From Pyropia yezoensis (lineage: Eukaryota > Rhodophyta > Bangiophyceae > Bangiales > Bangiaceae): DNA of 64,000 nt. The notes beneath the pieces are model-generated. The model saw nothing but the letters and a program-made list of their open reading frames with translations. It did no database searches and was not told where the DNA came from. The translations under genes and the position numbers were made by a program. Location: positions 13,141,420 to 13,205,419 of the forward strand of contig CM020620.1 of the NCBI GenBank assembly GCA_009829735.1. The letters run 5' to 3'. Numbering within the stretch: position 1 is the stretch's first letter; every line of letters starts with the position of its first letter. Below are positions 3,990 to 64,000 of the stretch, piece by piece.

Positions 3990-4980
3990 TGTCGGGTCTG
4001 TCTTGGTCACGGCAGCAGCGACCAAAGCCTTCCCCGCCGTCGCCACGATGGGGTAGTGCGCCACAAGCGCCGCAGCCACAGCCGCCGCAATGCGAGGGCG
4101 CGCGACGTCGTCGAGCGTCTGCTGTCGCCACGGCAGGCGCCAGCACCACCAGCGGCTCCGCCGCCGCCGGCGCCGCCACGGTATCTGGGTCGTCATGGGC
4201 GGGAGTTGAGGCCACACCGGGGGCGAGCGCCGCAAGCGCCGCAGCCACCGCCGCCGCAAAGCGAGAGCGCGCGACGCCGTCGAGCGTCTGCTGTCGCCAG
4301 GGCAGGCGCCAGCACCACCAGCGGCTCCGCCGCCGCCGCCGCCGCCACGGTAGGTGGGTGGGCACACGCGAGAGTTGCGGCCGCCAAGACGCCCCACACC
4401 CTGGAGGCAGCCTCGCCCGTCGGCCATGGCGATGGTGGCAGCGGGAGCGACCAACGCCATCTCAGCCGTCGCCGCGGCAGACGCCAACACCACCGGCGGC
4501 TCCGACGCCGCCGCCGCCGCCACGGTCGGTGGGCGGGCACGGGCGAGAGTTGAGCACGCCTGACGCCCCCCCTTCTGCGTCAGCCGCTCCATCGACCACG
4601 GCGATGGTGGCGGCGGGAGCGGCCAACGTCGTCGCAGTCCCCGCCGCGGTAGGCGCCTGCACTACCGGCGGCTCCGACGCCGCCGTCGCCGCCCCGACGA
4701 AGGGTGGATGAGCACGGGGGAGAGTTGAGGCCGCCCACAGACCTACTCCCCTGGTGGCAGCCTCGCCCGTCGGCCACGGCTATGGTGGCAGCAGGAGCGA
4801 CGAACGCCGTCGCAGCCATCGCCGCGGCAGACGCCAACACCACCGGCTGCTCGACGCCGCCGCCGCCGCAACGGTCGGGGGGCGGGTACGGGCGAGAGTT
4901 AAGCACGCCTGACGCCCCCTCGTCAGCGGCAGCCGCTCCATCGGCGGCGACGGGTGCAGCGGCTGGCACGACTTAAGCCG
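3990..4980. repeat. Minisatellite, about 5.5 units of alternating ~171 and ~179 bp
   Basis: A recurring core (CACCACCGGCGGCTCC with variants) starts near 4141, 4311, 4488, 4660 and 4838, so successive spacings are about 171, 178, 171 and 178 bp. A further partial unit lies upstream from about 3990, sharing the GCGTCTGCTGTCGCCA block with the first full unit. The units are (GCC)-rich and leave open Ala/Thr/Pro-rich frames on both strands. I regard these frames as a by-product of composition rather than as genes. Confidence 0.75.
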
Positions 4981-47161: not shown

Positions 47162-48320
47162 AAAAATGCATGCATTTCGATAAAATGCATGCATTTTTGA
47201 TTCGCATTTGATTAAAGCATGCGTTAATTAATACAACTTCATTAATCAGCGATGGGTCAGTTTTTTGCACCTTTTTTGATTGTAAACTAAATACATGAGA
47301 AATTGTACGTCTCCCACACTGCGCCACCGTGAACAAGCGTGGTTGGGCGCCAACTAAGCAGTCGCAGTACAACAATAGAGCGCCAGTGACGTCCTCTTTG
47401 CGCGTCCTCTACCCCTCCTCCTTCCCAACGAGCCACGAGAATAGCTTTGGGGGCATGCTGTTTTCGATTGTCGGGTCGGCTGGCAGCTTTCGTGACGCTT
47501 TACCACTGAGGTCGACAGAGTTGGCCAGGATCTTCTTCCGGTGCCGGTGCACCTTACGCGTTGGGGGCTGAGCATGACATGACTGCGGCCGTCGAAGAGG
47601 CGGCGCCTCGGCGCACCGCCGCGTCTCGGTAAGCGAGCGCAAAGCCCATGGCGCTCACGACAGCCAAGAAGGCCAGCGCCACCCCAAGCTATCCCGGCAT
47701 CCAGGTCAGGGCTGTGGCGACCGCACGAGCCGCACCGGGTGTGAGGGGGGCGACCACTGTCGCGAGCGTCCGCAGGGCTGTCGTTGTGGCCGTAGCCGCA
47801 GCCGCCAACTAGTCGGCGTCGGTCGACGCGACGGCGGTCGCGGCTGGCGCGGCATTGGCTGCTGCCGGCCATCCAGCGACGGCGCTCCCACCACCACCAC
47901 GCCCACCATTGGCGCCCGCCGCGACCGCGTCAGCGTCGGTGGCAAGGAGGGCCAGGCTGGCCGCTGCTTCGGCCCCCCCCTCCCTCACCACCGCGACCGC
48001 CGCGTGCGACACCGCCGACGGCACTACCACCAGCGCCGCCAGCGCAGCCGCCCCCGCCCCCGTCGTCGCTTGGAGCCGCCGGGCGATGGTGGCCAGGGCG
48101 GCCACCAGCGTAGTGCAGTGAGTGACGGTGGTATTGCGAATCGTAGCGGCAGGGGCGTGTACTCGGCGGCTTTACATTGCAACAATAGAGGACTCACTTA
48201 CAAGGTTTTTGGTGTACTTACTTCTGATAAATGCTGTATGATTAATGCAACGGTCGGTTCCGGGGTTGATTAATTTATCCTTTAATCTATGCTTTAATCA
48301 AAAATCAAAATGCATACATT
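47162..48320. mobile_element. Non-autonomous element with AT-rich imperfect inverted ends
   Basis: Left end 47162-47225 (AATGCATGCATTTTTGATT..., then TTGATTAAAGCATG and AATTAAT) matches the reverse complement of the right end at about 48255-48320 over ~55 bp with mismatches. The ends are strikingly AT-rich in a GC-rich genome, while the interior is GC-rich. Interior frames at 47809-48121 are Ala-rich on both strands and not recognisable, so the element seems to have no transposase of its own. Superfamily unknown. Confidence 0.6.
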
Positions 48321-48534
48321 AAACTCGTGACAACCATGGCCACAGCCCGTTGGAGAGTCCATTCGCGATCCTTGGGGCGGGCGGGGCCAGCGCGAGCGGC
48401 TTTGGGTCCCACCCGCTTGGGTGTCGTCCGGTCTGTCACACGTGGATGGCGGCGAAGCCGGTGCGCCCTAGAATGGACTTCACAAGGCGTCAACCGCTTT
48501 CAGTACATACGGTACCCACATGCACAGCACTACT

Positions 48535-48648
48535 GTGCTTCCTGTAAATGTGGATGTTGAAGGGACGTGAGAGGTGGGATCCACTGGTCCAGACAGCGAT
48601 TTTCATCACCTTCACGTACCGTCAACATCCAATTTTTAGAGGAAGCAC
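48535..48648. mobile_element. MITE subfamily B, copy 1
   Basis: 114 bp with inverted ends beginning GTGCTTCCTGTAAA and continuing GGATGTTGA. The ends are related to those of subfamily A (GTGC-TCC-GTAAAAA-TGGA). No coding capacity. Confidence 0.8.
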
Positions 48649-48713
48649 TATAGAGTCCCTTCTGGTCGGGGGGTTGAGCAGAGCTCCGCCCCACCCGCCC
48701 CCCCGCGCTATTG

Positions 48714-48827
48714 TGCGTCCCGTCAAAAGTGAACGTGCACGGGTCGTGCAGTGTGGGTTTGATTGGTCCAGTGGCCGATGTTTGACATGATCACGACACG
48801 AGCACGTTCACTTTTTACGGGACGCAC
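48714..48827. mobile_element. MITE subfamily A, copy 2
   Basis: 114 bp, ends GTGCGTCCCGTCAAAAGTG and TTACGGGACGCAC. The interior is the reverse of the copy at 42154. Only 65 bp from the subfamily B copy 1. Confidence 0.8.
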
Positions 48828-49493
48828 TAGCACGTGGTGGTAGAATGTTAACCAATGCTTTCAATGTTGACCGGGCCCGGATTGCGTACGGTGACCCCGT
48901 GGAGGCCGATTGTCTTGACACAGCGTTCTCCTTGCTTTCCTCCACGTTGTGCAACACACGCACTATCTATGCTACAACCATCAGCTTCTCGCAGATGACG
49001 AAGAACAGAGTCTTCACCTCGCGTACAAAAAACTGTGTCCTGCGAGCGTGTGCTTCTTGCCTTCCGCGTCTGTTTCATGCACAGAAGTATCCTTTTTCAG
49101 GGGCTGAGAAGGTCCCCCAGTCACTCAACGATGAGAAGGGTATTTCCAAAGCTTTCTCCTCCGCGTATAATTGGTGCTGCGCTGGATTACTCCCATGTCA
49201 CTGGCGTACAACTGGTCGACATTGCCGCTTTCACATTCAGCACCTTCTCGTGCGTGTGTCTCGGCCAGAGCAACAACACCGAGGAAAAAAAAAGCGTTGT
49301 GATGCTCACAGCGAGGGCGTTTTTATGGTGTTTTTTGATTCTCACAGCGACAAGGTCGACGACGGCAGGTGACGTATTGGTCAACATTCCGCCAGCACGT
49401 GCTATAAGGTTGCGCGGCGCGCTCCCTCATTGGACCATGCCAGTTTCATCGCCCCAAGGCATGGCGCGTTTCATCTCTGTTGTATCTGATATA
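48828..49493. other. Moderate-GC stretch between MITEs
   Basis: A 175-codon open frame from 48845 (+) has unbiased amino-acid composition but no recognisable domain. It is more AT-rich than the host genes and is surrounded by mobile elements, so it is probably a transposon remnant. I do not call a gene. Confidence 0.35.
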
Positions 49494-49608
49494 GTGCTTC
49501 CTGTAAAAAATGGATGTTGACGGTACGTGAAGGTGACGAAATTCGCTGTCTGAACCAATGGATCCCTCACCTCACGTCCCTTCAACATCCACTTTTTACA
49601 GGAAGCAC
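49494..49608. mobile_element. MITE subfamily B, copy 2
   Basis: 115 bp with clean inverted ends GTGCTTCCTGTAAAAAATGG and the near complement ending TTTTTACAGGAAGCAC. Flanked by ATA and AGTAT, compatible with a TA target duplication. The arms are about 30 bp. Confidence 0.85.
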
Positions 49609-50130
49609 AGTATCCCAGGCCAGCCAGCGCTCAGAGATCATCACTCCGTAAGATCCCATGAATCCTTTGTTGCGTGAAGGAATCGGCCGCTGCAGCTTTC
49701 ACCAGATCTTGGTGAATACAGCCAGTGAAACGAACTCGGGGCCTATACCAGTCGAACTCACACGCCCCAGAGGACGGCTTCAGACACAGCATTTTCAGAC
49801 ACAGACACCAGACACGACACCAGATACCAACAGACAGCCCACCAATAGCACCAGACACTGGCCCGAGCTTCGGTGTCTGAACATTGAGATATGGGCCCGG
49901 AAACAACGATACCGTATCCGACGGGAGAGACTCGAGCTCAGCAGAGCCAGGCATCCAATAGTGACAATGCTCGACAGCAAGCAGATTTGGCATGGAAAGA
50001 GACAAAAACCAGTCAACCATCCACAGCAGGGCACGTACCCGTTGGTAGGCGAAGGGCATCCCTCCAAAACATAGAGCGGGTATAAAGGGGCACCCCCAAG
50101 AACGGGCAGAATACTCCACGGAGCGTGCTG
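49609..50130. other. Left flank of the 104-bp repeat array
   Basis: Contains a run of CAGACAC/CCAGACAC repeats at about 49788-49865, possibly subterminal repeats of the KDZ element, and a TATAAA at 50081-50086 (GCGGGTATAAAGGGG) just before the array. No supported gene. Confidence 0.45.
50081..50086 (+). promoter_or_regulatory. TATA box-like sequence before the repeat array
   Basis: TATAAAGG in a clear context, ~50 bp before the first repeat unit and 1.3 kb before the transposase ATG. Whether it is used is unknown. Confidence 0.3.
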
Positions 50131-51110
50131 CCATTGGGTGGCGCATGCTTTTTGACGAAGCATTTCACCACATTTTAGGATCCAACCTACAATGGGCCGG
50201 AATTGGAGCGAGTATGTGCCCGGGGCACGCTCCCATTGGATGGCAGGCGGCATCTTTCCAAACATTGAGAGCATACTTGAGGCGCTCTCCTCTGCTGCCC
50301 TGCAATACGCGGGGGGATACTGGCGAAGAGCGCCCAGCGATTGGACGGCCCACGGTTTCGGTCAAAACATTTCGCTCAGTTTTGGGGGTGCTCCGCACAG
50401 CCGCGGCGGATTGACTGGGGGATCTCTGTCCGCTGCGCGATGCCATTGGGTGGCGTGTGCTTTTCTACGAAACATTTGGCGACTGTTTTGGGCGCCAGCT
50501 GTCGCCGCGCCGGATTTTGGGCGGGCACTGGCCAGGGACGCGCTGCGATTGGTTAGCTAACAGTCTCGTTTGAAACATTGGGCGCGCATTTCGGGCGCTC
50601 CCCTCCGCTCCTTCGGAATGCGCGGGGGTTTACTGCCCAGGCGCGCCCAGCGATTGGGTGGCGCATGGTTTCGGTGAAAAGATTTCGCGCGGTTTTTGGG
50701 TGCTCCGCTCCGCGGCGGCGGATTGAGTGGGAGATACCTGTCCGCTGCGCGATGCCATTGGGTGGCGTGTGCTTTTCTACGAAACGTTCGGCGACTGTTT
50801 TGGGCGCCAGCTGTCGCCGCGCCGGATTTTGGGCGGGCACTGGCCAGGGACGCGCTGCGATTGGTTAGCTAACAGTCTCGTTTGAAACATTGGGCGCGCA
50901 TTTCGGGCGCTCCCCTCCGCTGCTTCGGAATGCGCGGGGGCTTACTGGTCAGGCGCGCCCAGCTATTGGATGGCACATGGTTTTGGTCAAATTGTTTTGC
51001 GCGGTTTTTGGGTGCCCCGCTCTGCGATGGCGGGATACCTGTTCGCTGCGCGATGCCATTGGGTGTCTTGTACGTTTCGACGAAAAATGTGGCTCTCGAT
51101 TGCATGCGTT
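50110..51110 (+). repeat. Ten ~104-bp units arranged as a 312-bp higher-order repeat
   Basis: ATTGG recurs at 50133, 50235, 50340, 50445, 50548, 50653, 50757, 50860, 50965 and 51058, all in one orientation, with spacings 102-105 except the last (93). Every third unit is most similar: pairs 312-313 bp apart (50445/50757, 50548/50860) are nearly identical over more than 100 bp. A typical unit reads ATTGGGTGGC, ~15 bp, TTT(T/C)nnnGAAA, a short gap, and TTTTGGGnGC. Located directly upstream of the KDZ transposase start, it may be subterminal transposase-binding repeats, a promoter array, or both. Confidence 0.9.
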
Positions 51111-51398
51111 TGATATTTGCATTGTCGTCGGAATTAAGGAGGCTCACTACTGCCGGACCTCTGTGGAAGCGAAAATTCAATGCCGTCAGCTCCGTCCTGT
51201 CCCCGACCAGCTCTACCACCCCTTCCACCCCTGCCGAATCGTGTTCCGGGAGCTTCGCTGGCCGGTTGGTGGTCGGCGTTTCCGCCGCGAGTGACCCCGT
51301 TGCTCCGTCTCGCGCCCCCGCGCCCCCCCCTCCCACTTTTCCCAGCACCCCTCTTCTCGCTTTCCTGATTCTTGGTATGCGTTGGTGGCGAGGACGTC

Positions 51399-54300
51399 AT
51401 GGCCGCCCACTTGTCATCGGAGGAGCCGCTACCCGACGACGACGAGCTCACGGACGAAGAGCTATCTGGTGACGAGGGTCCGTTCTTCCACGCGCCGGTC
51501 GTATTTTCTGTCCCTGGACAGCGCTCCAGCGTCCAGGCAGTCACCGAGCGCCTTCTCCGATCGTCGCAGTCGGGCTTGGGAGAGGTGCTTCATGGGTACA
51601 CGGCGGGATCTCTTGGCGTTGCAGCTCATCCCGGCTGGATGGCGCCCGCCGCTGACGACTTGCTGGGTGATCCAACTGGCGGCCAAGACACCGAACGCAG
51701 GACTGCCAACAACGATCTTCATCGTCCAGCGCGACTGGCGGCAGCAGCAGCACGACCGCGGCGCCCGCACGTAGCAGCTGACGCGGGGGACGTGGTGGGC
51801 GACGTGGGAGACGCGGCAGATGACGAGTATGCGCCTCCGCCGACCCCCCCGGTGTCAGTGATAACCCTGCTGACGGACCCTGCAAGACCCAGCCGTGCGC
51901 ACACCCCTGCCTACAGCATGGCGGTGGCGCTGACGGCCTCCGTTCGGCGCGCATGTGGGCTACCTACGAGCACTCCTGTCAGGCAAGTTGCGTCGCCCTT
52001 CCGAGCGACCATTGTTGGAGACCCGGGATCTCGATGTCGGGCCATTGCCTTGAGGTTTGGTGGCGTGAAGCGAGACGCTGTCCTTTGGGTCTCCAACCGT
52101 GGTGGGCTGATGTGCTCTTGCTTTCATGGGACCCAGAACGCCCTGTTCCTGTCCGCTTCCTCCCGCAGTGGCGACTGTTCGCACACAGCTCTGCTGCGGA
52201 AGAGCATCTCCGACTCGGGCGTGGCGTTGTCCAAGTTCGTGAAGCGGATGCGCTTGGGGGACGCCCCCGCGGACTTTGCGGTGAGCAACCGATACGGGGC
52301 ATCTGTTGTCTGGACGGTCCTGTACCATTCGGTGTATTCCCTGGTATCGTTTACCGCGGGTAACGTGGCGTCCTGCGTGGCTCCCGGGTGTCGCCGCTTC
52401 CGCAACCGGTGTGGCCACGTGAAGCTGACCCGACCTCTGCAGGCCGCGTACAAGGCATCAGCTAATGCCGTCTCTCAAGGACAGGCGGGGGCAGCAGCGT
52501 CCAGAACAAGCGCTGCCGCAATGGATGTTGCACCCTTTCTCGTTTCCGCCGAGGAGGATGAGGGAATTGAGAAGATGCCCCCGAGCACTGCGCGTGCTAA
52601 TACAGACGCTGGCGAGGCGAGAGTGGCCAAGCGTGCTTCTCGCAACCTGCTCCCATGTTCTGGAGAAGTAGCTGACGGCGCCGTCTGGGCGCGGACGGCG
52701 GGCTGGCATGCGCTTCGTTCCAGTCGAGCCCCATCGGGTGACGAGCACGAGCCTGACAACGTACGCCAGATGCGGCAACTGTTTAACGCATCCTCCTTGC
52801 TCGGCCATGTCCGAGATCCAGCAGAAGTTCTCGTTGACGCGCAGTGCGGCAGTTGCGGTCGGCGACGTGAGCAACGGCACGAGATTTTGAGAGAGCCAGC
52901 GATCTTGTACACGCACCACCCAACTGCCCCTGCACTGCCAGTAAGTACTGCTATTCTCTTTGCTGTGTGTTTTCTCTGTGCTTCGTTCTCTTATGTGCTT
53001 GTCCCATGCATGCCACCAGAGCCGTCCTAACACCGCTGTCTCTCTGCTCTCAGCGTGGCTCGTGACTGCTTGGTCGTCGCGTCTTGTATAGGTGGTGGTC
53101 GGGAGCTGGATGTGCGACCGGGACGGGTGCAAGAGATCAGTGGAGTACGACGGCGCGCATGACTCCCTGTTCAACCTGCGCCGGCGGAACAAGCACCGTC
53201 AATGGGTCATCTTTACCCGCGCTTTGTTGGACTCACTCTTCTCCTTCATCATTACTGCGCGGACCACTTACACGGCAGCGACCAGGCACCTCTCCGCGAA
53301 CGTGCAGTGCTTCTCTTTTCGAAGGCAGGACGTTGTTAAGATTGGGACTGCCATGCTCCGCAGCTTCCTCATTCCCCCCGGGACCTCCATTTGTTCGATA
53401 GGCGGCCCCAACCCAGACTTTATCATCATTGATGGGCAGGCGCTGGGATGCATCGACCCGGACGACGTGTGCCCGGACCGGGATGAGGAGGAGTGCCCCG
53501 TCCTGGACATACCCGCTACGAAGCTGTGCGTGGTGGAGGACGTGGGACTGCGCGCCGCTATCATCAAGGTTGTTCGGACGTCCACGGCGCTGACCAACGC
53601 GCAAGTGGCTGTCCTCCGCAAGTGGCACGAGAAGATGCTGACGCGCCAACAGGCGACTGTGGAGGGCGGCGCGGCGTACCTTTTCTTCAAGTTCTTCCCT
53701 TTGGGTGATGAGCTGCCACCGGCTCAACCGCCTCCAGGCGACCAAGCCGCTCATGGTCAGCCTCGGCCACAGTCTGGTCAAGCTGCCGCTGGCGCCGATC
53801 CCGATTCGTCTGTCAGCCGCAAGCGCAAGGCGGTGGGCTCAAGCCGTGGGCTAGAGAGCGCCCTCCGCCTCGACGCAGATGGGGAATTGACCCTGGGCGG
53901 CAAGGGGCCACCGGCAACCAAGGCGGTCGAGACATGGCGTGATCGCACTGGGCTCTGTGCCCCGAACTTCCGTGCCTTTCCACGGGATGACGATGGCGCG
54001 TGGCTGTCAATTGTGCCGTTCTTGCAGGCATTTCTGGCAGAGACGGTCTCGGGGATGTTCCATGGGCATGACGAGCGGGCGATCCGTCTCGTTGCGCACA
54101 CTTTGCGGTTGAAGGGGGCCGGCGCGTGGCGCGAGCTGACCAAGCCCCTCGAAGGAGTGGGTTTTGTGGCCAGCTTCATGGGGCGCTTCGCACCTAACAT
54201 TGACGCGGACCCGCTGTTCCGGATGGCGCTCGGCCAAGTGCTGCTGCCGGCTGTCAGTGTGGAGACGATCATCGACGACATGTTCGCCAAGGCTGCGAAC

Positions 54301-55493
54301 AGCGCCGACGCGCGGGAGCGCGGCTGGGTCAACTCCGAGTACTGCAAGCTGTGGGGAGGAACGCCGACCCCGGGTGACTACCTGCGATGGCGCGCGTTGC
54401 GCGCCCGCATTAGCGACAACAACCTGGATGACCCCTTCACGAGCTACGAGCACTTTGCGGGACTGAGCCGTGTGCGCCCTGGCATCAAGGACTCCGAGGC
54501 GGCTAAGCGGCGTGTTGGCTACAGAGGCAAGGATCGCCACGCAGCCGACATGGAGGGAGAAGGGGACGCCTGCAACAAGGCATTTTCGATCAAGTGTGGC
54601 CTGACGCAAGAGGTCTTCAAAATGTCGTCTGTCCGCACGTGATTGCCCTGGGCTTTCGGTGTCTCTTTCGCGCGGAGAGCGTTGAGGAAGCCCTTTCGAT
54701 CATTTTGGAGAGGTTTCCCAAGCTACCGAAGGTGGTCTTCTACGATGTTGCGTGCAAGCTCGATAAGAACGCACTGCGCCGCGTCTGACCCATTCTGCGC
54801 GCGCACAAGGTGCAGTTCATCCACGACAGGCCCCACTCCATAACCCACAGCTGCTCCCCCGTTTACATACCTGATGAGAGCTTGGGCGCGACGGCGGGTG
54901 TCGCGACACAGGCAGCAGAAGTTTCACATTCGATTGCTGTTGTCAACCGAACCAGCCTGGCCTACATGGCCCCGGCGACTTACATGATACATAAGATGAC
55001 GCAGGTAGCGTTGATGAACGTGCGCAAGCTGCACCGACTTTCTCAAGCAAGCACGAAGGCGGAGAACGATCACATCTCCCTCAGCCCTTTCTACCATCTT
55101 CGTCTTTCGCGTGCGTGCCAGCGTGGTGTGGATTGCAGCTGTTACTCGACGGTGACGGACGGCGGGCCGGGGCCGGCCTCGCGGACTTTGACCAGCAAGA
55201 TTGGCAGCGTCAGGGCAGTGGACAACATCGCGAAGAATGAGTCCGATCTCGTCTTCAGACCACCTGTAGATGGTGATGAGCGGTTGTGCCGTGCGAGCGT
55301 CGTGGCGCCCGACCATGCGGGCAGCGGAACGACTGGTGAGTCGGGTGAGCTGAATGGCGGGGCAGGGAGACGGCCTACCGGCGTGTCGAGCGACAGTATT
55401 GATGTCAATCCAAGCGATCGGGTACCGCTGCGGCGGGGTGACGGCTCTTCTGTGGTAGGTGACGTTGATCGCGTGAGGCAAGTCGGCAGTTAG
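51399..55493 (+). pseudogene. KDZ-class (Zisupton-like) transposase, interrupted
   Basis: Exon 1 is 51399-52940 and a 151-nt intron (donor GTAAGT, acceptor TATAG) leads to 53092, phase 0. The acidic N-terminus precedes a SWIM-type zinc finger (CSC...DCSH, ~52110-52190) and a C-x4-C-x6-CGHV motif (~52375-52420). The KDZ-associated cysteine/DG region follows (PDFIIIDGQALG, ~53415). Catalytic residues are DACNKAF (Asp 54565), YDVACKL (Asp 54744) and QAAEVSHS (Glu 54918). The frame shifts by one base near 54610, upstream of VVCPHVIALGF, and is stopped by TGA at 54786 and TAG at 55491. Without that TAG the frame continues into the Ulp1 domain after two codons. Assigned to the KDZ superfamily by motif order; probably no longer makes a full protein. 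Confidence 0.8.
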
Positions 55494-55499
55494 ATCTTC

Positions 55500-56567
55500 A
55501 TGGGCGACGTGGCGACGGGAGTGCTGGGCGACCGACGTGGTGATGAGGACGAAGGAGGAACGGCCAGGCCGGGCGACGGAGCGGCTAACGTTGACGAATT
55601 GGAGGCGGGCGGCTTGTGCCGACGCTCCAGTGGCCTCGAACAAGGATCTCTGCGTGCACTCGACGATGCGGCTCGTGGTGCACGTTTTGCGCCTCTGTCT
55701 GCGGCTCCCCTACCTGCCGACTTCGTCGCCTTCGTAGAAGCTCTGGGGATGGATGGCTCCTTCTCTGGTCCCGTCCGCCCGCTCAACAAGGCAAGGATAT
55801 CCCTGATGGCGTGCGACTTTCACGTCCTGTTCAACGATCGATGGTTGACAGACAACGTTTTGAACTCCTACGCAGACCTGATCAATCACCGTGACGGGCT
55901 AGCGGGTGCACAGCGTCGCGGCGGGGCGCACATCTTGGGCGCCCAGGTGACGTCCGATGCTCCATTGGCTTCTTGTGCTTTGTCAACCATTCCGCGCTCG
56001 TTCAGGTTCAGCACGTTTTTCTACTCCCGACTGTCTGCCAAAGCAGGCATCTACGACTACGCTGGCGTGCGCAACTGGACCACGAAGAGAGACGTGTCCA
56101 TCCACGACATGGACGTACTGCTGGTCCCCGTGCTGGTGGGGTCGTGCCACTGGGTGCTCGCAGCAATCAACGTGCGCGACAGGTACTTCATGTATTACGA
56201 CCCCTATTTGCTCGCAGACGACGGCGGCATCATTTTGACATTGCGCCGCTGGCTCACGGATGAGGCGCTGGACAAGCTAGGCAGTGCGATTGTGGACCTG
56301 TGGGACGTGGAGAACTGGCCGCTGGTGAGCTCGGCCGATCTTCCCATCAAGACCGACTCTTCCAGCTGTGGCGTCTTATCCCTCGTCGTCGCGGACTGCC
56401 TGGCAGTGGGTCTTCCAGCGACGATTACGCAGCGGGATGTCCCTGTGCTACGCCGACGCCTTGCGATGGCCTTGTTCCTGGACGATCTGACCGCCAATGA
56501 CGACGACGTTCCGCTCGACCGGCAGATATTCGCAGGTGCCTCGGCGCCCGGAGCAGCCGACCAGTAA
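55500..56567 (+). CDS. Ulp1/C48-type SUMO-protease domain of the KDZ element
   Basis: 355 codons from ATG at 55500, open and in the same frame as the upstream transposase, from which it is separated only by TAG at 55491 and two codons; an ancestral fusion is likely. The Ulp1 fold is recognisable: WLTDNVLNSYADLI (the WLxDxxI segment), catalytic His in SCHWVLAAINV, Asp in YYDPYL and Cys in SSSCGVLSL. The usual Q-x-x-x-x-D before CG is replaced by K-T-D-S-S-S, so the oxyanion Gln is not at its usual position. Ulp1-type proteases remove SUMO. Many KDZ/Zisupton and Mutator-type transposons encode one, perhaps to counter SUMO-dependent silencing; that role is a hypothesis. Confidence 0.82.
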   Translation: MGDVATGVLGDRRGDEDEGGTARPGDGAANVDELEAGGLCRRSSGLEQGSLRALDDAARGARFAPLSAAPLPADFVAFVEALGMDGSFSGPVRPLNKARISLMACDFHVLFNDRWLTDNVLNSYADLINHRDGLAGAQRRGGAHILGAQVTSDAPLASCALSTIPRSFRFSTFFYSRLSAKAGIYDYAGVRNWTTKRDVSIHDMDVLLVPVLVGSCHWVLAAINVRDRYFMYYDPYLLADDGGIILTLRRWLTDEALDKLGSAIVDLWDVENWPLVSSADLPIKTDSSSCGVLSLVVADCLAVGLPATITQRDVPVLRRRLAMALFLDDLTANDDDVPLDRQIFAGASAPGAADQ

Positions 56568-56639
56568 TCTCATCACTCTGGCGATTTGGATGCGTCGGTG
56601 CCGCGCCACGCCAGGTGCTTGCTGGAGGTGTTGGCGGTA

Positions 56640-57390
56640 AGAGCACAGTGTCAGACAGTGGGTGCTCGGCGGGCTGCTTGTGTGGTGTGCGGCGGTCCTT
56701 GCCACTGGGAAGATTGCAGCCTGTTGGCGTTCGAGGGAGGCAATGGTTGTGGGCGCTGCTAAGGTGCCCTGGTGTTGCGCCAGGGAGTGGCTGTCTAGCT
56801 CACGGGGGGGGACTGGGGCGAGGGTGTTGGCCAGCTGCCGGCAGATGGAGGGTTGTTAGTGTAGGGCGTGGTGCAAACTCTATAATCTTGTTGCAAAACC
56901 TCCCAGCGTAGCGAGTCGCATCCGCTGTGGAAGGGCAGTGTGCAGGTTGTCCGAGTCGCGAGTACACAGAGGGGGTAGTCATCGCGCACCAGCTACAATA
57001 GGTGTGGAAAGGCCTTGGCAGCAGCGGCTGGCGTTGTAGGAAGGTGGCATCCTGTCGGCTTTTAAGAGAGGAAATGGTTGTGGGCGTTGCATAGGGGCCC
57101 TGGTGTTGCGCCAGTGAGTGGCTGTATGCCTGACGTGGAGGTCCTGGGCCCAGAGGGGGTGGCCATCTGCCGGCAAAAAGAGGGTTGTTCGTATGAGCGT
57201 GGTGCAAAGTATGTTTGTATCTGTGCGCCTTGTGCACCAGGCCGCACTCGTCGGTAGACGGATAGTGTGCGGGATATCCGAGTTGCGAGCACAAACGGGG
57301 TGCTGTGATCGCGTAGCAAGCGCAATAGATGCAGAAGAGCACAGGCAGCAGCGATTCGCGACGCTGGGCTATGGACGCCTGGAGCCAAAG
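56640..57390. repeat. Imperfect tandem duplication, unit ~328 bp
   Basis: The block ATGGTTGTGGGCG...CCCTGGTGTTGCGCCAG...GTGGCTGT occurs at about 56742 and 57070. It is followed in both by GGCCA-CTGCCGGCA, GAGGGTTGTT, GCGTGGTGCAAA and a CGAGT-GCGAG segment. Similarity is roughly three quarters by eye. It follows the Ulp1 stop and may belong to the transposon. Confidence 0.7.
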
Positions 57391-59127
57391 CACCTGCGCA
57401 GATTGTACCAGGCTGGTGCAGCGAGTACAGTCTCACGACCTCTGTTTCTTTTCACACCCCATGTCATGCGCGGCGGGAGGCTGAAAGTCCATGAGCCGTA
57501 CGAAAACGTGCGGGGAGGAGGGTGCGACGCGCGTGCACAGCACCACGCACGACTGGAAGTGTGGAGAGATGTCACTTTCAGGTGTGACAACGGGGAGGTA
57601 AGAGGGAAATGGGGATAAGTGACCGGATTGGAAAGGAGCGTGCTGGAGAGAGACGCCCCAGGCATGTGTCAGAGCCCATACCACCAATGAATAGCTCGGC
57701 CCTTTTTGAGAGTGTGCCCGTGTCCTGTGTCCCTCGACCCACGCAGGCTCCTTGGCGCAGCTTCTTCTGCTGTGCACAGGGGACAAGCTTCACACAGATA
57801 AGGACACCGCACTGTCGGAAGCACATGGGCCCGGAAGGTGACTGCCGTGCTGGGGCAGCGGAAGGGCCAGGCAGAATAGACCGGCGTGCGGGTGGATGGC
57901 GGTGAGGCCGAGGGTCGCATCGATAGAAGAACTGGGCGATATGGGTGCGCTCGTGGTGGGCACGTCCACGTGTACAGGCATTGGCTGGGTGGGCACCGGG
58001 TTCTTCCGAGGTCAACTCGGCTTAGCTCATTCACCACACGCCCTCCCCAGTCGTCCCCTTCGATGACCGGGCAACACCGGTTCATCGCGCCCCCCTTTCG
58101 ACCGTACTGTCGTAGAGGCTGCCATTGACAAAGGCTGGTGGTGTGGGGCCGCGGTGTATGCAGTGGTCTTCGCATGCTGCGCGGCGTGGTCGCGTGTCCT
58201 CGTCGCACAAGGAGCATCCCTTAGCCATCACACCAAGCCCTCTTCCCCCCAGCCGATGCTCACCCCACCTGAGCACCCACCCCCGTTCTCTTACCGTCAG
58301 CCCTGTGCGTGCGCCAGCGATGACCAGGACGAGCTGCTCGTCGATCCACGAAGTGAAGTGGGATCACACACCGTGTACATGGCTTGATAAACCGACAATG
58401 AGATAATTCTTCACGAGGGCCTCACTTGTGCTTTCAATCTCGCAAGTGCGGTCCTGTGGCGCGGTGCTGCAGCCTATGAATGGCGTCTCTCGGCTACCAG
58501 ATACTGCATCTGGACCGCTCGCGCATCTAACTGCGTCACCGATGTACTGAGACTATGTTTCGCATGTACGCTTCAAAAAGCATTGTTTTCATGCCTCGCG
58601 AGACCTCGTTCCTTGACCGCATTTTGAAAACTGGCGCGAATCAATTCATGAAGTAGCCCCTTTCGTCATGGAAACGATGTGTTGACAAAACCGCTCGTTC
58701 TCCTCTCAGCTCACCCCGCGCGCGCTTCGCCTATGTACCTGTGGCCGTTTTGCTCCGTCCGTCGTGAAGCGGTTTGAACCGGTGATGCCTGGGCTCCCGC
58801 CACACCCCGACCGCAACGGACTCTCGTGTGCCATGATGTACTGCTTCGTTGGCGCCATGCGCCTGAGCCTTTCTCGCATTGAAGGTTTCATCTGTTGCTC
58901 TTGCTCGAGGGTCCCGCCCTTTCGGTACGTTTGCGCGGGCAGTGCCGTTGACGCGTCGGCCGTGTCGTGCCACGTGCACGTGTGTCTCGGACCGCCCACC
59001 CGACGACAGACGCGCAACCCCGGTGGCGGGCTCGTGTGTGCGTTGCGCATGTGGTTGTGTGAATTGGAGTCATGCAGCTGTGCGCGCGTCGGTGCTGCGC
59101 TGGGTGGTGTGGGTGACGGTCTTCGCC
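57391..59127. other. Region between repeat and helicase ORF
   Basis: No recognisable domain. The helicase frame is open from 58879 but has no ATG before 59128. A second frame at 58764-59204 is Cys-rich and could be a frameshifted N-terminal extension of the helicase protein. 57430-58700 has minus-strand frames without family motifs. Confidence 0.35.
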
Positions 59128-61899
59128 ATGGCCATGGCGCCGGTCGGCCGGCCTGTGATGGCTTTGGTCACATCTGGTGTTTCCCGTATGGTGAGGGCCT
59201 CTGACGAATCCACGATGGTCGCGCAGATGCTCTCTCTTCCCACGCCGGGCCTGATGGTGTCGTGCTCCTTCATGACAGTTGCGGACGCTATGTGTTGGCT
59301 GACAAATCCTCTCCCGGCTGAAGTCGTTCAAGCTGCGGAGCAGAGCGGTGTGCTGGGGCCTGTGGTCACATCCTGTGTTGACGGAGGCTGGCTGGCTGTC
59401 GTCACACAAGGCCCATGCTCCTGCTTCCACATTGACAGCACCAACACAAGCGCGGCGGTCATGCTGATGAATGGGGCGACGTCGCCGATATGTGCTCTCG
59501 GTCATTTCGCGAGTGCTGACGCGGCACATGCTTGGCTCTCTGGAACGGCATCTTGCGAGCTTTTGACACTGTTGTGGGAGTCAACTGGGCTGGGCAAAGT
59601 CTCTACTGCCCCTCGTCTCCTTGCCGTCACGTCGACGCATCCTGGTGGCGGACGTGGGCCCCATCCTCATGCTCGTCTGTCGGTGCCTAGTCGGCGTGCT
59701 GATCAGCCGCAGGTTGATCAGGCAGCTTCTGCAAGCGCATTGCTGTTGGGATACAGCCAGCACGGTGATGCTCGTCTCGTTGAGGGAGGCCCTTCCACGG
59801 TGCCGACATCATTAGAGCTTGTCAGCGCACGGCCCGCTGCTCACGCGTGCATGTCACAGTGTGATGTTCTTGACGATGCGGAGGTGGAGCTTGTTCCGGC
59901 GCGCTCTCCCTTTGCTGTTTGGTCAGCGCGTGCTGCAATGACCGAGCACGTTGTCGACGTTCACGTTCGACCTGCGCGGAGCAGCTCGAGCCCTGGCAAG
60001 CACGACTCTGGCCACCAAGCAGCAGCTGCACGTGGGCAGGGTGGCGGGGCAAGCCTCAAGCGGGGCGTTCGGCCCGACTGGTCAACGGGATCTCGGGCGC
60101 TAAGGTTGATTCCTAGCTATCCGGTAGACCTCGGCACCAGGACTGAGCGGACCAGTGGGGCGGTGAGTGGGCTGTTCTCATCGGCTGTGCTCTGCGCTCC
60201 CTCCGGCCACGCGGCCGCTCGAGTCACTGCAAGCGAGGCCCTTGTAGCACGCCCAAGCGCGGGCGCAGCCGACGGGGTCCCGACCGCGAAGCGGGTCCGC
60301 CTCGCGAATGAAGGGGGAGCTGCGAGTGCTCTGAACCCTGCTGGTGGCTTTCGCAACGACGGCCCGACCAACTTCTCGCGTGCGGACATCTCCCGTATGA
60401 TGGCTGCCACCAAGCGAGCATGGGAGGAGGCTGACGCCGCCGCGGAGCGACAAGGAATACATTTGCGTACAGTGGCCACACGCAAGGAATGCGCGCTCGG
60501 TCGACTGGCTGCCACTGGTGAGTGGGGGGATCTATTCCGACTGATGGTCCAGAGGAACCGGAGCACGTTCATCACGGGCGGCCCTGGTGTCGGGAAGTCG
60601 ACGTTTCTCAAGGGCTTCCACAAGAAGCTGAAGGAGAAGTGGGCCCTCGACGGTGAGATCATCATCGTGGCACCGACTGGCAGCTCCGCGAAGACTGCGA
60701 ATGGCCAGACGTATCATTCATTATTTGGCTTCCCGCGCGACTACCGAGCTCCAGCGGGTGAGCCCCACGTCGAGGCTGCTCGCCTGCTCAGGCAGGAGCG
60801 ATTCCGCCCCATCCGCAGGCGTCTCGCACTGGTGCGCGTCTTGCTCATGGACGAGGTGTCGATGGTCCCGGCGGACCGGTTTGGCGTTATGATCGAGCTG
60901 TTATGTCAGTCGAGGCCCGCGACGAGCCCCCACTGTGTCGTGTACACGTTTGGGGACTTTTTGCAGCTGGGCCCGCTCACAGGCTCTCTGACTTTCCATT
61001 CAGCGGCTTGGCGGTCGTTGTTTGGCGCTTCGATGCTGGAGCTCACCCGTGTGCACCGGCAGTCCGACGCCGGCTTTGTTCAAGCCATCATCGACGCTCG
61101 TCACGGACGGTGCTCTACGGCTGTCATGACCCTGATGAACGACTGTGCAGCTTCGTACGAGCGCTACATGGACCTGCGTTGCAACGTGCTCCACCTCATG
61201 CCTCGACATGGCGACGTGCAAAAGCACAACGCGGACTGCCTGAAGGCGCTCTGCGGCGACGAGCCGCCGCTTGAGTTTCACGCGGTGGATACCATCGAGC
61301 AAGACGACGACCGCGACCAGAGTCGTCCCGCCGTTGACCTGCGGCGCATCACCGAGCACTCGCGCAATGCCGCACTGGTCGACTGTGTGGCTCCCCGCTG
61401 TGTGTTGCACTGCCTGCGGGCCAGGGTAATGCTCACGAATAACCAGTACCTGGCGCTGGGATTGTACCACGGCAGCATTGGGACGGTGTCTTTCTACGAG
61501 GAGGACGGCACCCCAGTAGTCCGCTTCGAGCATCACACGCTTCCTCCCGGCGTCAATCGCGGCGTGCACGGGGTGCACGATGCTGGCGCAGATTGGCTGG
61601 AGGTTGAGTGCCCGCCGGTGACATTTGAGGCGCGGATGTTGGCTCACCCTGGGGCTGTTGCGGTACGTCGTCAAGTGCCTTTCGTCTTGGGATGGGGCAT
61701 CACTGTGCACCGGTCACAGAGCCTCTCTTTGTCGGAGGCGGTTCTTGACATAGGGCAAGCGTTTGGGGCCGGCATGGTTAACGCTGCTATCAGCCGCGTT
61801 GGTGATAAGAAGCGTATGCATGTCAAGTCCTTCACAGGCAGCCGTTTGGTTGCCGACCCCATTGCAGTCAAGTTCTACAGGGAGGGATCGCGTCTTTGA
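59128..61899 (+). CDS. PIF1-family helicase, transposon-associated
   Basis: 923 aa from the first in-frame ATG (GCCATGGCC). The N-terminal ~450 aa are unrecognised, with a Cys-containing region ~40-150 and a disordered linker. The SF1B helicase core is complete: Walker A GGPGVGKST (~484-492), APTGSSAKTANGQTYHSLFG (motif Ia), LLMDEVSMV (Walker B, ~570), FGDFLQLGPL (PIF1 signature), TRVHRQSD (motif IV region), then GWGITVHRSQSLSLSEAVLDIG and NAAISRV (motifs V/VI). PIF1 helicases unwind DNA 5'-3'. The helicase follows the KDZ/Ulp1 genes on the same strand and is bordered by direct repeats, so it may belong to the same element. No Rep/HUH domain is present, so it is not a typical Helitron. It could instead be a separate element or a host copy. 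Confidence 0.88.
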   Translation: MAMAPVGRPVMALVTSGVSRMVRASDESTMVAQMLSLPTPGLMVSCSFMTVADAMCWLTNPLPAEVVQAAEQSGVLGPVVTSCVDGGWLAVVTQGPCSCFHIDSTNTSAAVMLMNGATSPICALGHFASADAAHAWLSGTASCELLTLLWESTGLGKVSTAPRLLAVTSTHPGGGRGPHPHARLSVPSRRADQPQVDQAASASALLLGYSQHGDARLVEGGPSTVPTSLELVSARPAAHACMSQCDVLDDAEVELVPARSPFAVWSARAAMTEHVVDVHVRPARSSSSPGKHDSGHQAAAARGQGGGASLKRGVRPDWSTGSRALRLIPSYPVDLGTRTERTSGAVSGLFSSAVLCAPSGHAAARVTASEALVARPSAGAADGVPTAKRVRLANEGGAASALNPAGGFRNDGPTNFSRADISRMMAATKRAWEEADAAAERQGIHLRTVATRKECALGRLAATGEWGDLFRLMVQRNRSTFITGGPGVGKSTFLKGFHKKLKEKWALDGEIIIVAPTGSSAKTANGQTYHSLFGFPRDYRAPAGEPHVEAARLLRQERFRPIRRRLALVRVLLMDEVSMVPADRFGVMIELLCQSRPATSPHCVVYTFGDFLQLGPLTGSLTFHSAAWRSLFGASMLELTRVHRQSDAGFVQAIIDARHGRCSTAVMTLMNDCAASYERYMDLRCNVLHLMPRHGDVQKHNADCLKALCGDEPPLEFHAVDTIEQDDDRDQSRPAVDLRRITEHSRNAALVDCVAPRCVLHCLRARVMLTNNQYLALGLYHGSIGTVSFYEEDGTPVVRFEHHTLPPGVNRGVHGVHDAGADWLEVECPPVTFEARMLAHPGAVAVRRQVPFVLGWGITVHRSQSLSLSEAVLDIGQAFGAGMVNAAISRVGDKKRMHVKSFTGSRLVADPIAVKFYREGSRL

Positions 61900-61904
61900 T
61901 ATGT

Positions 61905-62145
61905 TTTGTTCTTCTGCGTCTCCTGTCGTCGGGAGCCTGATGGCTAGGATCCCTTTTGAAGCGCAGCGTTGACAAGCATGGAAGACAGGCAACCTCTTTT
62001 TTTTTAACCAATCGTACGCACAGACACACACACATCACACGCTGAGCACTCCCGTAGCCTAAGGAAGGATAACTTCTGATATTATATCTGTCTTGTCGTC
62101 GGGAGCCTCATGGCCAGGATCCGTGTTGAAGTGCAGCGTTGACAA
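61905..62145. repeat. Two direct repeats of ~65 bp after the helicase
   Basis: CTGTCGTCGGGAGCCTGATGG...GGATCC...TTGAAG(C/T)GCAGCGTTGACAAG occurs at about 61920-61976 and again at 62091-62145, roughly 170 bp apart. This is typical of subterminal repeats at a transposon end. AATAAA at 62181 could end the helicase transcript. Confidence 0.75.
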
Positions 62146-62871
62146 GGGTGCATCACAGGTAACGGCGTTTGTGCCTAATCAAATAAAGTCACACTCAGAA
62201 CACGCTACGGTCCCTGCTATGGAGTTCCCGCTGCTGGAGCACCGCTTGAGGGAACAGGCCCAGTAAGGTGATGTTTCTCACGCTGTGGCAGTATTGACCC
62301 CCAGGTAGGGGGGCAACACGTGCCATGCAAGGGGCGGCAGGCCACTAGCCTGATCCGTTCCTCCCCCTGCATTTGGGTCCATATTCCGTAAGTTTGGGAT
62401 AGTTAGCTTAGTAGTAAATCCAACTTGGATTTGAGGGTTTTCTGCATTTATCGTCTTGAATTTTCGTGTGGCCCGGTGGGCAGGTGCTGGGGTGGGAAAT
62501 TCTGAGTGGCGAAATTCTGAGTGGACCCTGGGGGGATAAGGGGAGGGACAGCGGGGCTTGGCCCTGCGTCCCCGTCCCGACCAAGAAACTGTTGGACCAC
62601 ACACCATCCTCTTGTTTGTCAGTGGGGGGTTTGCCCCACAACAGGGACAGAGTGTGTGCGACTTGCACTTCTTCCGGTTCCCCCGACACGGGAGGCAGCC
62701 CTTGTACACCGCCCCAACTTGGGTGTCGTGTGTGCAAGTGGTTTTTGCCACTTTTAGTGGAGCAGCAGGGGACAGAGGTAAACTTTACTTCCGGGTGCAC
62801 CCGGGTGTAGGGGGCCCTCTGTCTCAGAGAAACGGTGGACTTGGACCGTGTCGTACGGATCGTCAGCCAAC
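62146..62871. other. Probable LTR/leader of a retrotransposon
   Basis: From about 62284 (TGTGGCAGTATTGACC) to the gag ATG there are no plus-strand genes. A possible LTR begins with TG at 62284, but its CA end and the primer-binding site are not certain. A tandem GAAATTCTGAGTGG duplication lies at 62498-62524. A second LTR would be outside the window. Confidence 0.4.
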
Positions 62872-64000
62872 ATGGCTAGCTCGGATCCCCCGTCGTCCGG
62901 GGAGTACACGGGTGACGCACGTACTTCAGTGCCTTTGAATACTGGTGAGACACAGGTGGGTTTACCTGGGGTCGCAGAGGGACTAGAGGTCCCTCAAGCC
63001 AGCAGGACTGGAAGTACGGGCGGGCAACAGGCCACCCCGACTCAGTCGGGAGTTCACTCGGGTGACACTTCTGATGTGGGTGGGCCGAAGTCTGGCCACC
63101 GTGTGGTATACTCAACGGGAACGTCCCAAGGGGTGAGGACTGTCCCCGCGGGCTCCACTCGGGTTGGAGCCAACTTTGGCTTGGAGCCGTCGCCAACTAG
63201 GCTTTCGGAGGACGGCGGACCTCCGTTGGTCGGCGATGGGCTCGCGCCCATGCCCCCGGTTGAGACCCCTGAGGAACGTGGTTACCCCTCAGGTGGACTC
63301 CCGGAGGCGGACCGAGACTCAACTGGAGTCGTCAATCCACTCCTCGCGGAAACTGTCCGTCGGGAGGCGACCAATGTGTTGCGGCAGACTTTGCCGGACC
63401 TGGTGGTCACGATGACGAATACTATTCTGAATCAAATTGTGGCGAGTTTGCCAGATGGCCTTAATGTCCAGACCGGATTGGGGCTTTCGAGCCCGCAGGC
63501 GCAGGGGGAATCTCCCCTGACGCCTATTCCGGGTTGCCCCGAACAGGGGGGGACCCCTGTGACTCCCAACGTGGGAGTCGCACCATTCTCGGTGGGGCGT
63601 ACGCCCTTCACGGGGGAGTTCCCCTCGGAAACGCCGGCGGCTACACCAAGCTCGCCGTACCAGACTACAGGCGCTGAGGGTCAACTTACCCCAGTGCCAC
63701 AGCGGCTGTTCCCTCAACGTGAGGTGCCGCCCAAGATCCAGGTAGCCAACCCGGTCTACCAGGGGATCTTTGACTGCGCGACCTACGCCCTCCAAAACAA
63801 GTCCGTGGTGCATGGTCCTGTCCAGGCCCGAGCCATGGGTCGTGCCAAGAAGAATGCACTTCATTCATTTGGGCACAAAGCGGAGTGGGATGGAACTCCC
63901 CCCCTCCGTGTCTTTGAGTTCCTACGTCGTTTCACAAAAGCCTGTGACGACAATGCCATAAGTGAAGGCATGGCTTTTTACATGCTACAGGAGTTTACGA
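62872..64000 (+). CDS. Gag-like polyprotein of an LTR retrotransposon (3' end beyond window)
   Basis: An uninterrupted frame starts at ATG 62872 (CCAACATGGCTAGC) and is still open at 64000, so 376 residues are visible. The first ~270 residues are Pro/Ser/Thr/Gly-rich and disordered, with a short helical island (AETVRREATNVLRQTLPDLV). From ~63880 onward, AEWDGTPPLRVFEFLRRF and AFYMLQEF match the start of retrotransposon Gag capsid domains (W-x-G...FL..F). Protease, reverse transcriptase and integrase would lie beyond the window, so Ty3 versus Ty1 type cannot be told. Moderate GC, lower than the host genes. Confidence 0.7.
   Translation, partial: MASSDPPSSGEYTGDARTSVPLNTGETQVGLPGVAEGLEVPQASRTGSTGGQQATPTQSGVHSGDTSDVGGPKSGHRVVYSTGTSQGVRTVPAGSTRVGANFGLEPSPTRLSEDGGPPLVGDGLAPMPPVETPEERGYPSGGLPEADRDSTGVVNPLLAETVRREATNVLRQTLPDLVVTMTNTILNQIVASLPDGLNVQTGLGLSSPQAQGESPLTPIPGCPEQGGTPVTPNVGVAPFSVGRTPFTGEFPSETPAATPSSPYQTTGAEGQLTPVPQRLFPQREVPPKIQVANPVYQGIFDCATYALQNKSVVHGPVQARAMGRAKKNALHSFGHKAEWDGTPPLRVFEFLRRFTKACDDNAISEGMAFYMLQEFT

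Follow-up and report, generated by a model that had tools for sequence, protein, structure and literature searches.

The final part of the 64,000-nt stretch of Pyropia yezoensis DNA analyzed here (the window) is very probably a copy of a giant KDZ (Zisupton-like) DNA transposon with terminal inverted repeats (TIRs), whose gene set comprises a transposase fused to a Ulp1 protease, a PIF1-type superfamily 1 (SF1) helicase and a third gene convergent with it, ORF3. The element has defined ends flanked by 8-bp target-site duplications (TSDs), and its genes recur together and diverge together across the genome. It is of a known kind, KDZ/Zisupton-type, and forms no new category; what is new, as far as the matches listed in the open-access literature go, is the presence of PIF1 and ORF3 in the gene set. 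The window corresponds to C3:13141420-13205419 in an assembly of 107.5 Mb that consists of 11 contigs, the three large ones measuring 43.6, 34.3 and 29.4 Mb, and the accessible part of the genome report describes about half of the genome as repeats, with 65% GC (PMC7423979).

Extent, ends and copies of the element

A preliminary description of the window had placed the element at 50081..62145, as a cassette bounded by repeat arrays. Its true extent is larger: it begins at 49673, ends about 10.6 kb beyond the window and takes in a third gene and a nested retrotransposon. The arrays sit inside it. The 5′ end was located with the 5′ TIR of a second copy (C2:31475843-31492026, 16,184 bp): the alignment starts with the first base of that TIR at window position 49673 and scores 49, as against 30 at the next best place in the window, and none of 500 shuffled queries reached 49 over positions 48301-51400 (best shuffle, 40). 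At C3:13216018, downstream of the window, a sequence resembling the 3′ end of the C2 copy is directly followed by the same eight bases that precede the 5′ end. The window's element is C3:13191092-13216018, that is, 24,927 bp, or about 16.1 kb minus the nested retrotransposon.

Features of the element and of its short derivatives (window positions unless a contig is named)
Feature	Position	Strand	Basis
Left TSD, CTTTGTTG	49665..49672	.	8 identical bases directly outside both predicted ends
5′ TIR, begins CGTGAAGG	49673..49731	+	Alignment to 5′ TIR of the C2 copy
Subterminal tandem array, 312-bp unit x 2.4, 105-bp substructure, inside the element	50281..51033	+	
KDZ transposase, exon 1, SWIM-like CxC..CxH pattern and CGHV motif	51399..52940	+	Translation
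KDZ transposase core, broken	53092..55493	+	Translation; open-frame relatives
Ulp1 (Peptidase_C48) domain	55494..56567	+	Profile and PDB searches
Two-copy repeat, 331 bp apart, spacer between KDZ-Ulp1 and PIF1	56708..57153	+	
PIF1-type SF1 helicase, 923 aa, open	59128..61899	+	Pfam, PDB, alignment
Two-copy repeat, 170 bp apart, past the PIF1 stop and before the retrotransposon	61898..62170	+	
Nested LTR retrotransposon	62284..64000, continuing to C3:13212500	+	LTR pair and 5-bp TSD
Right TSD, copy of CTTTGTTG	C3:13216019-13216026 (outside the window)		
Short derivatives	C1:26010417-26012657, C2:815365-818437, C2:8841829-8844999, C3:15236926-15240051		

We distinguish family A, with at least 50% identity to the window KDZ, from the more distant family B (33-39%). 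TIRs and TSDs were checked in family A and its short derivatives, where five of the six end pairs examined have a perfect 8-bp TSD. Aligning copy ends to find terminal repeats and target duplications, as had been proposed, yielded in two copies, those of the window and of C2, related imperfect TIRs of about 60 bp, with CG..TC termini, and for each copy its own perfect 8-bp TSD, the two differing from each other. The 3′ end of the C2 copy is matched by an inverted counterpart upstream of the KDZ gene, and GTGGAGGG stands outside both ends as the TSD. In both copies one TIR/TSD pair encloses KDZ and PIF1 together, which supports what had previously been only inferred, namely that the helicase is part of the same element. 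Copies ending between 56.6 and 58.9 kb had been named beforehand as evidence against this, and none was seen.

Searches with end patterns returned 28 matches for the 3′ pattern (reversed control, 6) and 9 for the 5′ pattern (control, 0). They include four pairs of ends with a spacing of 2.2-3.2 kb, the short derivatives of the table, three of which have a perfect 8-bp TSD (CCCTGCAG, GCGGCCGG and GACTGGGC); in the fourth (C1:26010417-26012657) the flanks do not match, and the 3′ end abuts an apparent inverted second 3′ end. The remaining matches are a 5′ end upstream of a copy at C2:16.69 Mb, 3′ ends near other copies, and partnerless ends.

The copies at C3 24.75 Mb and C2 31.48 Mb are 99% identical, and their matches stop at the same 3′ point. 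All three genes are open in the C3:24.75-Mb copy (KDZ-Ulp1, 1096 aa; PIF1, 972 aa; ORF3, 965 aa); its 5′ end was looked for and not found, and upstream of its KDZ gene there is a repeat that other loci also have. Neither of the two copies with both ends has every gene open, KDZ being broken in the window and the PIF1 and ORF3 frames being interrupted in C2. Fragmentary copies are numerous, and the helicase matches at C1:6.64 Mb and C1:38.24 Mb are split into separate pieces. At the C2 locus, an 8.2-kb tandem duplication (C2:31466550-31474215 and 31474716-31482378, 99.7% identical; L070, L020, L026, L071 and L019) covers the PIF1-ORF3 end of a copy plus its flank.

The LTR retrotransposon nested in the window's element (C3:13203703-13212500; left LTR, 62284-62752) has LTRs that differ at 8 of 469 bases and is flanked on both sides by the 5-bp duplication CACGC. 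It is younger than its host element, and its insertion point is within the end of ORF3 or adjoins it. A genome search with the LTR of about 470 bp gave 1487 first-look candidates, 40 of which were scored.

As regards the internal repeats, the higher-order array noted in the preliminary description was recovered near the 5′ end, where the C2 copy carries a different array (about 157 bp). A repeat of about 328 bp had also been described; the repeat exists, as two copies 331 bp apart that are 79% alike over 115 nt. The supposed direct repeats of about 65 bp downstream of the helicase are likewise real and differ in length, being a 103-nt repeat with copies 76% alike. Tandem arrays whose unit lengths are unlike those of the window lie beside or inside other copies (C3:24746365-24747373, C2:31464500-31466415 and C2:31490525-31491613). 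Outside the element, a MITE-like inverted repeat at window 48531-49612, with 107-nt arms that are 91% complementary and with further inner inverted repeats, stops about 60 bp before the 5′ end.

Predicted genes

The first exon of the KDZ gene carries a CxC...CxH pattern, spotted by eye, which we take to be SWIM-like. The putative intron that follows has GTAAGT at 52941 and AG at 53090-53091, also read by eye from the sequence, and the C2 copy has GTATGT at the position equivalent to GTAAGT. In the window, the KDZ reading frame breaks off near 54.63 kb, and stops follow at 54786-54788 and 55491-55493. The downstream frame matches Peptidase_C48 in Pfam (E 4.5e-24) and SENP1 in the PDB (E 3e-20). 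Four loci elsewhere have KDZ and Ulp1 together in a single open frame of 1096-1155 aa, and in open copies Ulp1 is the C-terminal part of the KDZ protein. The in-frame Ulp1 domain of the preliminary description is thus right as to the domain, and wrong for the window copy as to the frame, which is lost and interrupted by the two stops. Because its transposase is broken, the window copy would need one supplied in trans to move, if it can move at all.

Taken by themselves, the KDZ pieces of the window have no Pfam match at E<1. The piece at 53092-54639 is 51-71% identical to its seven next best places in the genome, and among five KDZ-type frames of relatives scanned against PF18758 (KDZ), three match with E-values of 2.4e-4, 3.9e-4 and 6.2e-4 and do not reach the curated cut-off (26.6 bits); a more distant family-B frame matches above it (E 2.9e-7, 30.9 bits). 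The most distant of the five, L065, has no PF18758 match. One relative also matches PF18717 (CxC4) at E 0.034, under the cut-off of that model, and blocks reading YDVACK, LDRxH and QAAEVxHS, candidate sites of the DDE catalytic acids, are common to three family-A proteins and one family-B protein. The predicted membership of the window gene in the KDZ class, as first proposed, is thereby upheld through homologous frames that match PF18758, rather than through the window copy alone.

The helicase frame spans 58867-61899, with the start methionine chosen at 59128. It matches PIF1 (PF05970; E 2.5e-7) and AAA_30 (E 1.6e-10) in Pfam and PIF1 in the PDB (E 1e-23), and the conserved SF1 helicase motifs, Walker A and B included, are common to it and nine relatives in a 10-row alignment. 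We assign the predicted protein to the PIF1 helicases (SF1B); the earlier call of a complete PIF1 helicase agrees with its open frame and its Pfam and PDB matches. Its N-terminus has a conserved stretch of about 160 aa, and this part gave no match in Pfam and PDB matches at E 0.13-0.46 at best; a single-sequence AlphaFold model of it was set aside (pLDDT 37). In six comparisons of the window helicase with relatives (NG86), dN was 0.23-0.49 and dS 1.6-2.3, dS being near saturation; one close pair gave omega of 0.31 and 0.49 in two parts. In the substitution analysis as a whole, four dS values were undefined. Judged from these substitution rates, the predicted helicase is under protein-level constraint.

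PIF1-type genes are numerous in this genome, with 70 matches in a Pfam PIF1 search, which itself missed the window's own helicase, so that absence from its list means little. Frames with PIF1 domains of about 500-2040 aa lie away from KDZ (L007, L008, C1:23543639, C1:39508261 and C2:20888340), several of them paired 6-14 kb apart; the 1021 aa read at L007 match PIF1/AAA models only. In a prokaryote collection we found 244 PIF1 relatives, the best 80 at 23-30% identity. A PIF1 profile found 22 viral loci with helicases (21-34% identity) in a viral collection in which the window PIF1 alone had no match. In a tree of 35 helicases, six family-A and five family-B PIF1 proteins form one clade (support 95/96), apart from six other PIF1 proteins of the same genome and from 18 bacterial or viral helicases. 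Some rows of this tree are long-branched. Its outgroups, 18 of 102 loci (the 22 viral ones plus the best 80 of the 244 prokaryotic relatives), are bacterial and viral, all its eukaryotic PIF1 proteins come from this one genome, and two of eight other PIF1 loci of the same genome (L006 and L008) were dropped for short coverage.

ORF3 is a long frame between PIF1 and the 3′ end, on the strand opposite to PIF1. In the window's element it falls beyond the window, and it ends at or close to the nested retrotransposon. At the thresholds used, it has no match in Pfam, PHROGs, NCBIfam or the PDB.

Joint occurrence and co-divergence of the genes

The genome search found 37 KDZ clusters in all, 14 of which have a PIF1 relative within 20 kb, as against a mean of 0.585 and a maximum of 6 in 2000 random draws. 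PIF1 paralogues that are never adjacent to KDZ genes, a pattern that the preliminary description had said would speak against a single element, were thus not what we saw. In family A, 10 of 13 clusters (two of the 13 being fragments) have PIF1 within 15 kb, and in all of these KDZ and the nearest PIF1 share a strand. Family B comprises nine clusters: four lie within 20 kb of PIF1, all divergent from it, four further ones are 27-67 kb away, and one is without PIF1. The remaining 15 of the 37 are weaker matches or belong to a third KDZ-like family, whose kinship to KDZ rests on matches of 27-35%, L065 having no KDZ Pfam match. At none of seven two-part loci of this third family is there a PIF1 relative within 200 kb, and each has a Ulp1 match. 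KDZ and PIF1 therefore co-occur repeatedly, as in 10 of the 13 close clusters, and not always, as had been asked, given partial copies and the third family.

Seen from the helicase, no KDZ lies 25 kb away or closer at 7 of the 19 PIF1 loci of family A and at 6 of the 10 of family B. The closest relative of the window KDZ (C2:20140497, 71%) has no PIF1 within 650 kb. Its match halts at window position 55073, where the sequence passes into a repeat that other loci also contain; since it stops before 56.6-58.9 kb, this is not the kind of ending that had been named beforehand as contrary evidence. The third family itself (L065 at C3:970807, L066, L067, L068 and others) combines a KDZ-like N-part and Ulp1 in one frame, of 1136 aa in L065, with a KDZ-core match on the opposite strand, 11-19 kb away.

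A genome search with the first 623 aa of ORF3 gave 23 clusters. A PIF1 relative is no more than 20 kb from 21 of them (2000 random draws: mean 0.355, maximum 3); the 23 are not all independent, some being mutual duplicates (C2:31.47 Mb and C1:6.67 Mb). ORF3 is convergent with PIF1 in 20 of the 21, the exception being a weak match (E 1e-5) on the same strand at C2:14145902.

Pairwise identities of KDZ and PIF1 are tightly correlated over 10 chosen loci, six of family A and four of family B (Mantel r 0.97, reached in 0 of 5000 permutations). The input was a 316-aa KDZ stretch, and in two of the B loci KDZ and PIF1 are 45-67 kb apart. Within family A the correlation holds (r 0.92, 6 loci, 26 of 5000 permutations), and within family B it is not significant (r 0.98, 4 loci, 410 of 5000). 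Taken together with the joint occurrence, these results support KDZ, Ulp1 and PIF1 forming one element.

Whether PIF1 and ORF3 take part in transposition is a separate matter. They could be passengers: accessory genes that a KDZ element picked up together on one occasion and that are loosely useful to it, for instance against host silencing, outside the transposition machinery. We hold this to be a serious possibility, if somewhat improbable. Accessory genes are known from KDZ elements in the available parts of two reports (PMC12477816; PMC12730594), and a third KDZ-like family that has Ulp1 and lacks nearby PIF1 at all seven two-part loci suggests that PIF1 may be dispensable. On the other hand, a pair of passengers does not readily account for a helicase present in both families at about 30% identity with co-divergence, retained although the gene arrangement changed (co-oriented in A, divergent in the four nearby loci of B) and constrained at the protein level.

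An endogenous DNA virus or Polinton-like element in place of a transposon is very improbable. The large size, the helicase and the presence of several genes would fit, as would a match of the helicase to a Dda-like family in PHROGs (E 1e-29) and the identities of 21-34% to viral contigs; yet polymerase, capsid and integrase are absent among the 15 frames scanned with Pfam, a KDZ transposase is present, and short derivatives share the same ends and TSDs. Least credible of all is a chance neighborhood of an old KDZ copy and an unrelated PIF1, cellular or from a Helitron, which the sheer number of PIF1-type genes might encourage and which, unless the ends are misassigned, is refuted by the end pairs, a single TIR/TSD pair enclosing both genes, besides a co-occurrence far above random placement and a PIF1 clade distinct from six others of the same genome.

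Relation to known elements and a possible role for the helicase

Zisupton and Dileera produce 8-bp TSDs, whereas fungal Kyakuja elements have 7-bp TSDs, CA..TG termini and no TIRs, according to the accessible part of PMC12730594. By the same partial source, the element described here is like Zisupton and Dileera in its KDZ domain and 8-bp TSDs, and like Zisupton in its TIRs; it is unlike both in having PIF1 and ORF3 as shared genes. Its TIRs and 8-bp TSDs (five of six end pairs) are those of the Zisupton type, and the 8-bp TSDs, the TIRs and the CG..TC ends rule out the Kyakuja type.

Helitrons have a PIF1-like helicase and a HUH Rep nuclease and insert without target duplication, and Ginger DNA transposons carry Ulp1. 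Unlike a Helitron, the element combines a KDZ transposase with TIRs and 8-bp TSDs, and we rejected a Helitron assignment on these TSDs and on finding no Rep match in the scanned frames. The accessible text of PMC12730594 describes the Helitron as a transposon with its own helicase. The Ginger transposase is Gypsy-integrase-like and not KDZ, in a paper whose available text uses 'Ulp1' 21 times (PMC2836005).

Giant KDZ elements reach 30.3 kb in Ectocarpus, and one of 31.7 kb in Chlamydomonas is active (PMC12477816, accessible part). Those of Ectocarpus resemble the present element in large size, extra genes, nested insertions and an often broken transposase, and their accessory genes are mostly of unknown function; the main text of that report, as far as accessible, differs in that it contains neither 'PIF1' nor 'Ulp1', and 'helicase' only in a reference (PMC12477816). 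The KDZ1 element of Cryptococcus neoformans likewise has KDZ, TIRs and an 8-bp TSD, and differs in its size of about 11 kb, its 241-bp TIRs and its CxC1 domain, with 'helicase' absent from the accessible main text (PMC12810828). Among the matches listed in the open-access literature, we found no report of KDZ/Zisupton elements with PIF1, Ulp1, helicase or red algae; two papers mention both Zisupton and PIF1, in unrelated places of the text available.

Returning to the reading of one KDZ transposon that carries its own helicase, the TIRs, the 8-bp stagger and the short derivatives with the same ends lead us to infer cut-and-paste movement by a trans-acting transposase. The transposase would recognize the inverted repeats of about 60 bp, excise the element and reinsert it at a staggered 8-bp cut. 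The Ulp1 domain may remove SUMO from the transposase, or from silencing or repair proteins at the ends. For the helicase, we propose a role in transposition in which PIF1 would unwind the element's ends or the DNA of the donor gap, and such unwinding may make synapsis, repair or copying feasible for a very long element that is rich in repeats and homopolymers. That KDZ and PIF1 co-diverge, as seen in a comparison of sequences, argues for such a working partnership rather than for a passenger. The absence of PIF1 from the third family suggests that it is not needed by all KDZ-like elements.

A bolder proposal, which we consider unlikely, is that this is a DDE-type cut-and-paste lineage with a dedicated PIF1 in its machinery, ORF3 being a loader or partner, and that TIR transposition is here helicase-assisted or partly replicative. 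If it were true, it would link the mobility of giant elements to unwinding or repair synthesis driven by the helicase.

Independently of this proposal, a lineage whose SUMO protease and helicase co-diverge with the transposase across two families offers a testable case of self-supplied DNA unwinding and SUMO editing by a TIR transposon. For the repeats of this crop seaweed, the TIR, the 8-bp TSD and the three genes provide annotation criteria.

G-quadruplexes were considered as targets of PIF1, and counts of G4 motifs in the 5′ and 3′ subterminal regions fell within the window background, one array excepted: it has 8 motifs in 1.93 kb, as many as the richest of 2000 background samples (1.73 kb each), which is only suggestive of G4 targeting. 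The 3′ subterminal stretch of three copies contains a C/G run of 22-29 nt. Elsewhere in the window, a large GC-rich tandem repeat (175/350 bp) lies at 4293-4943.
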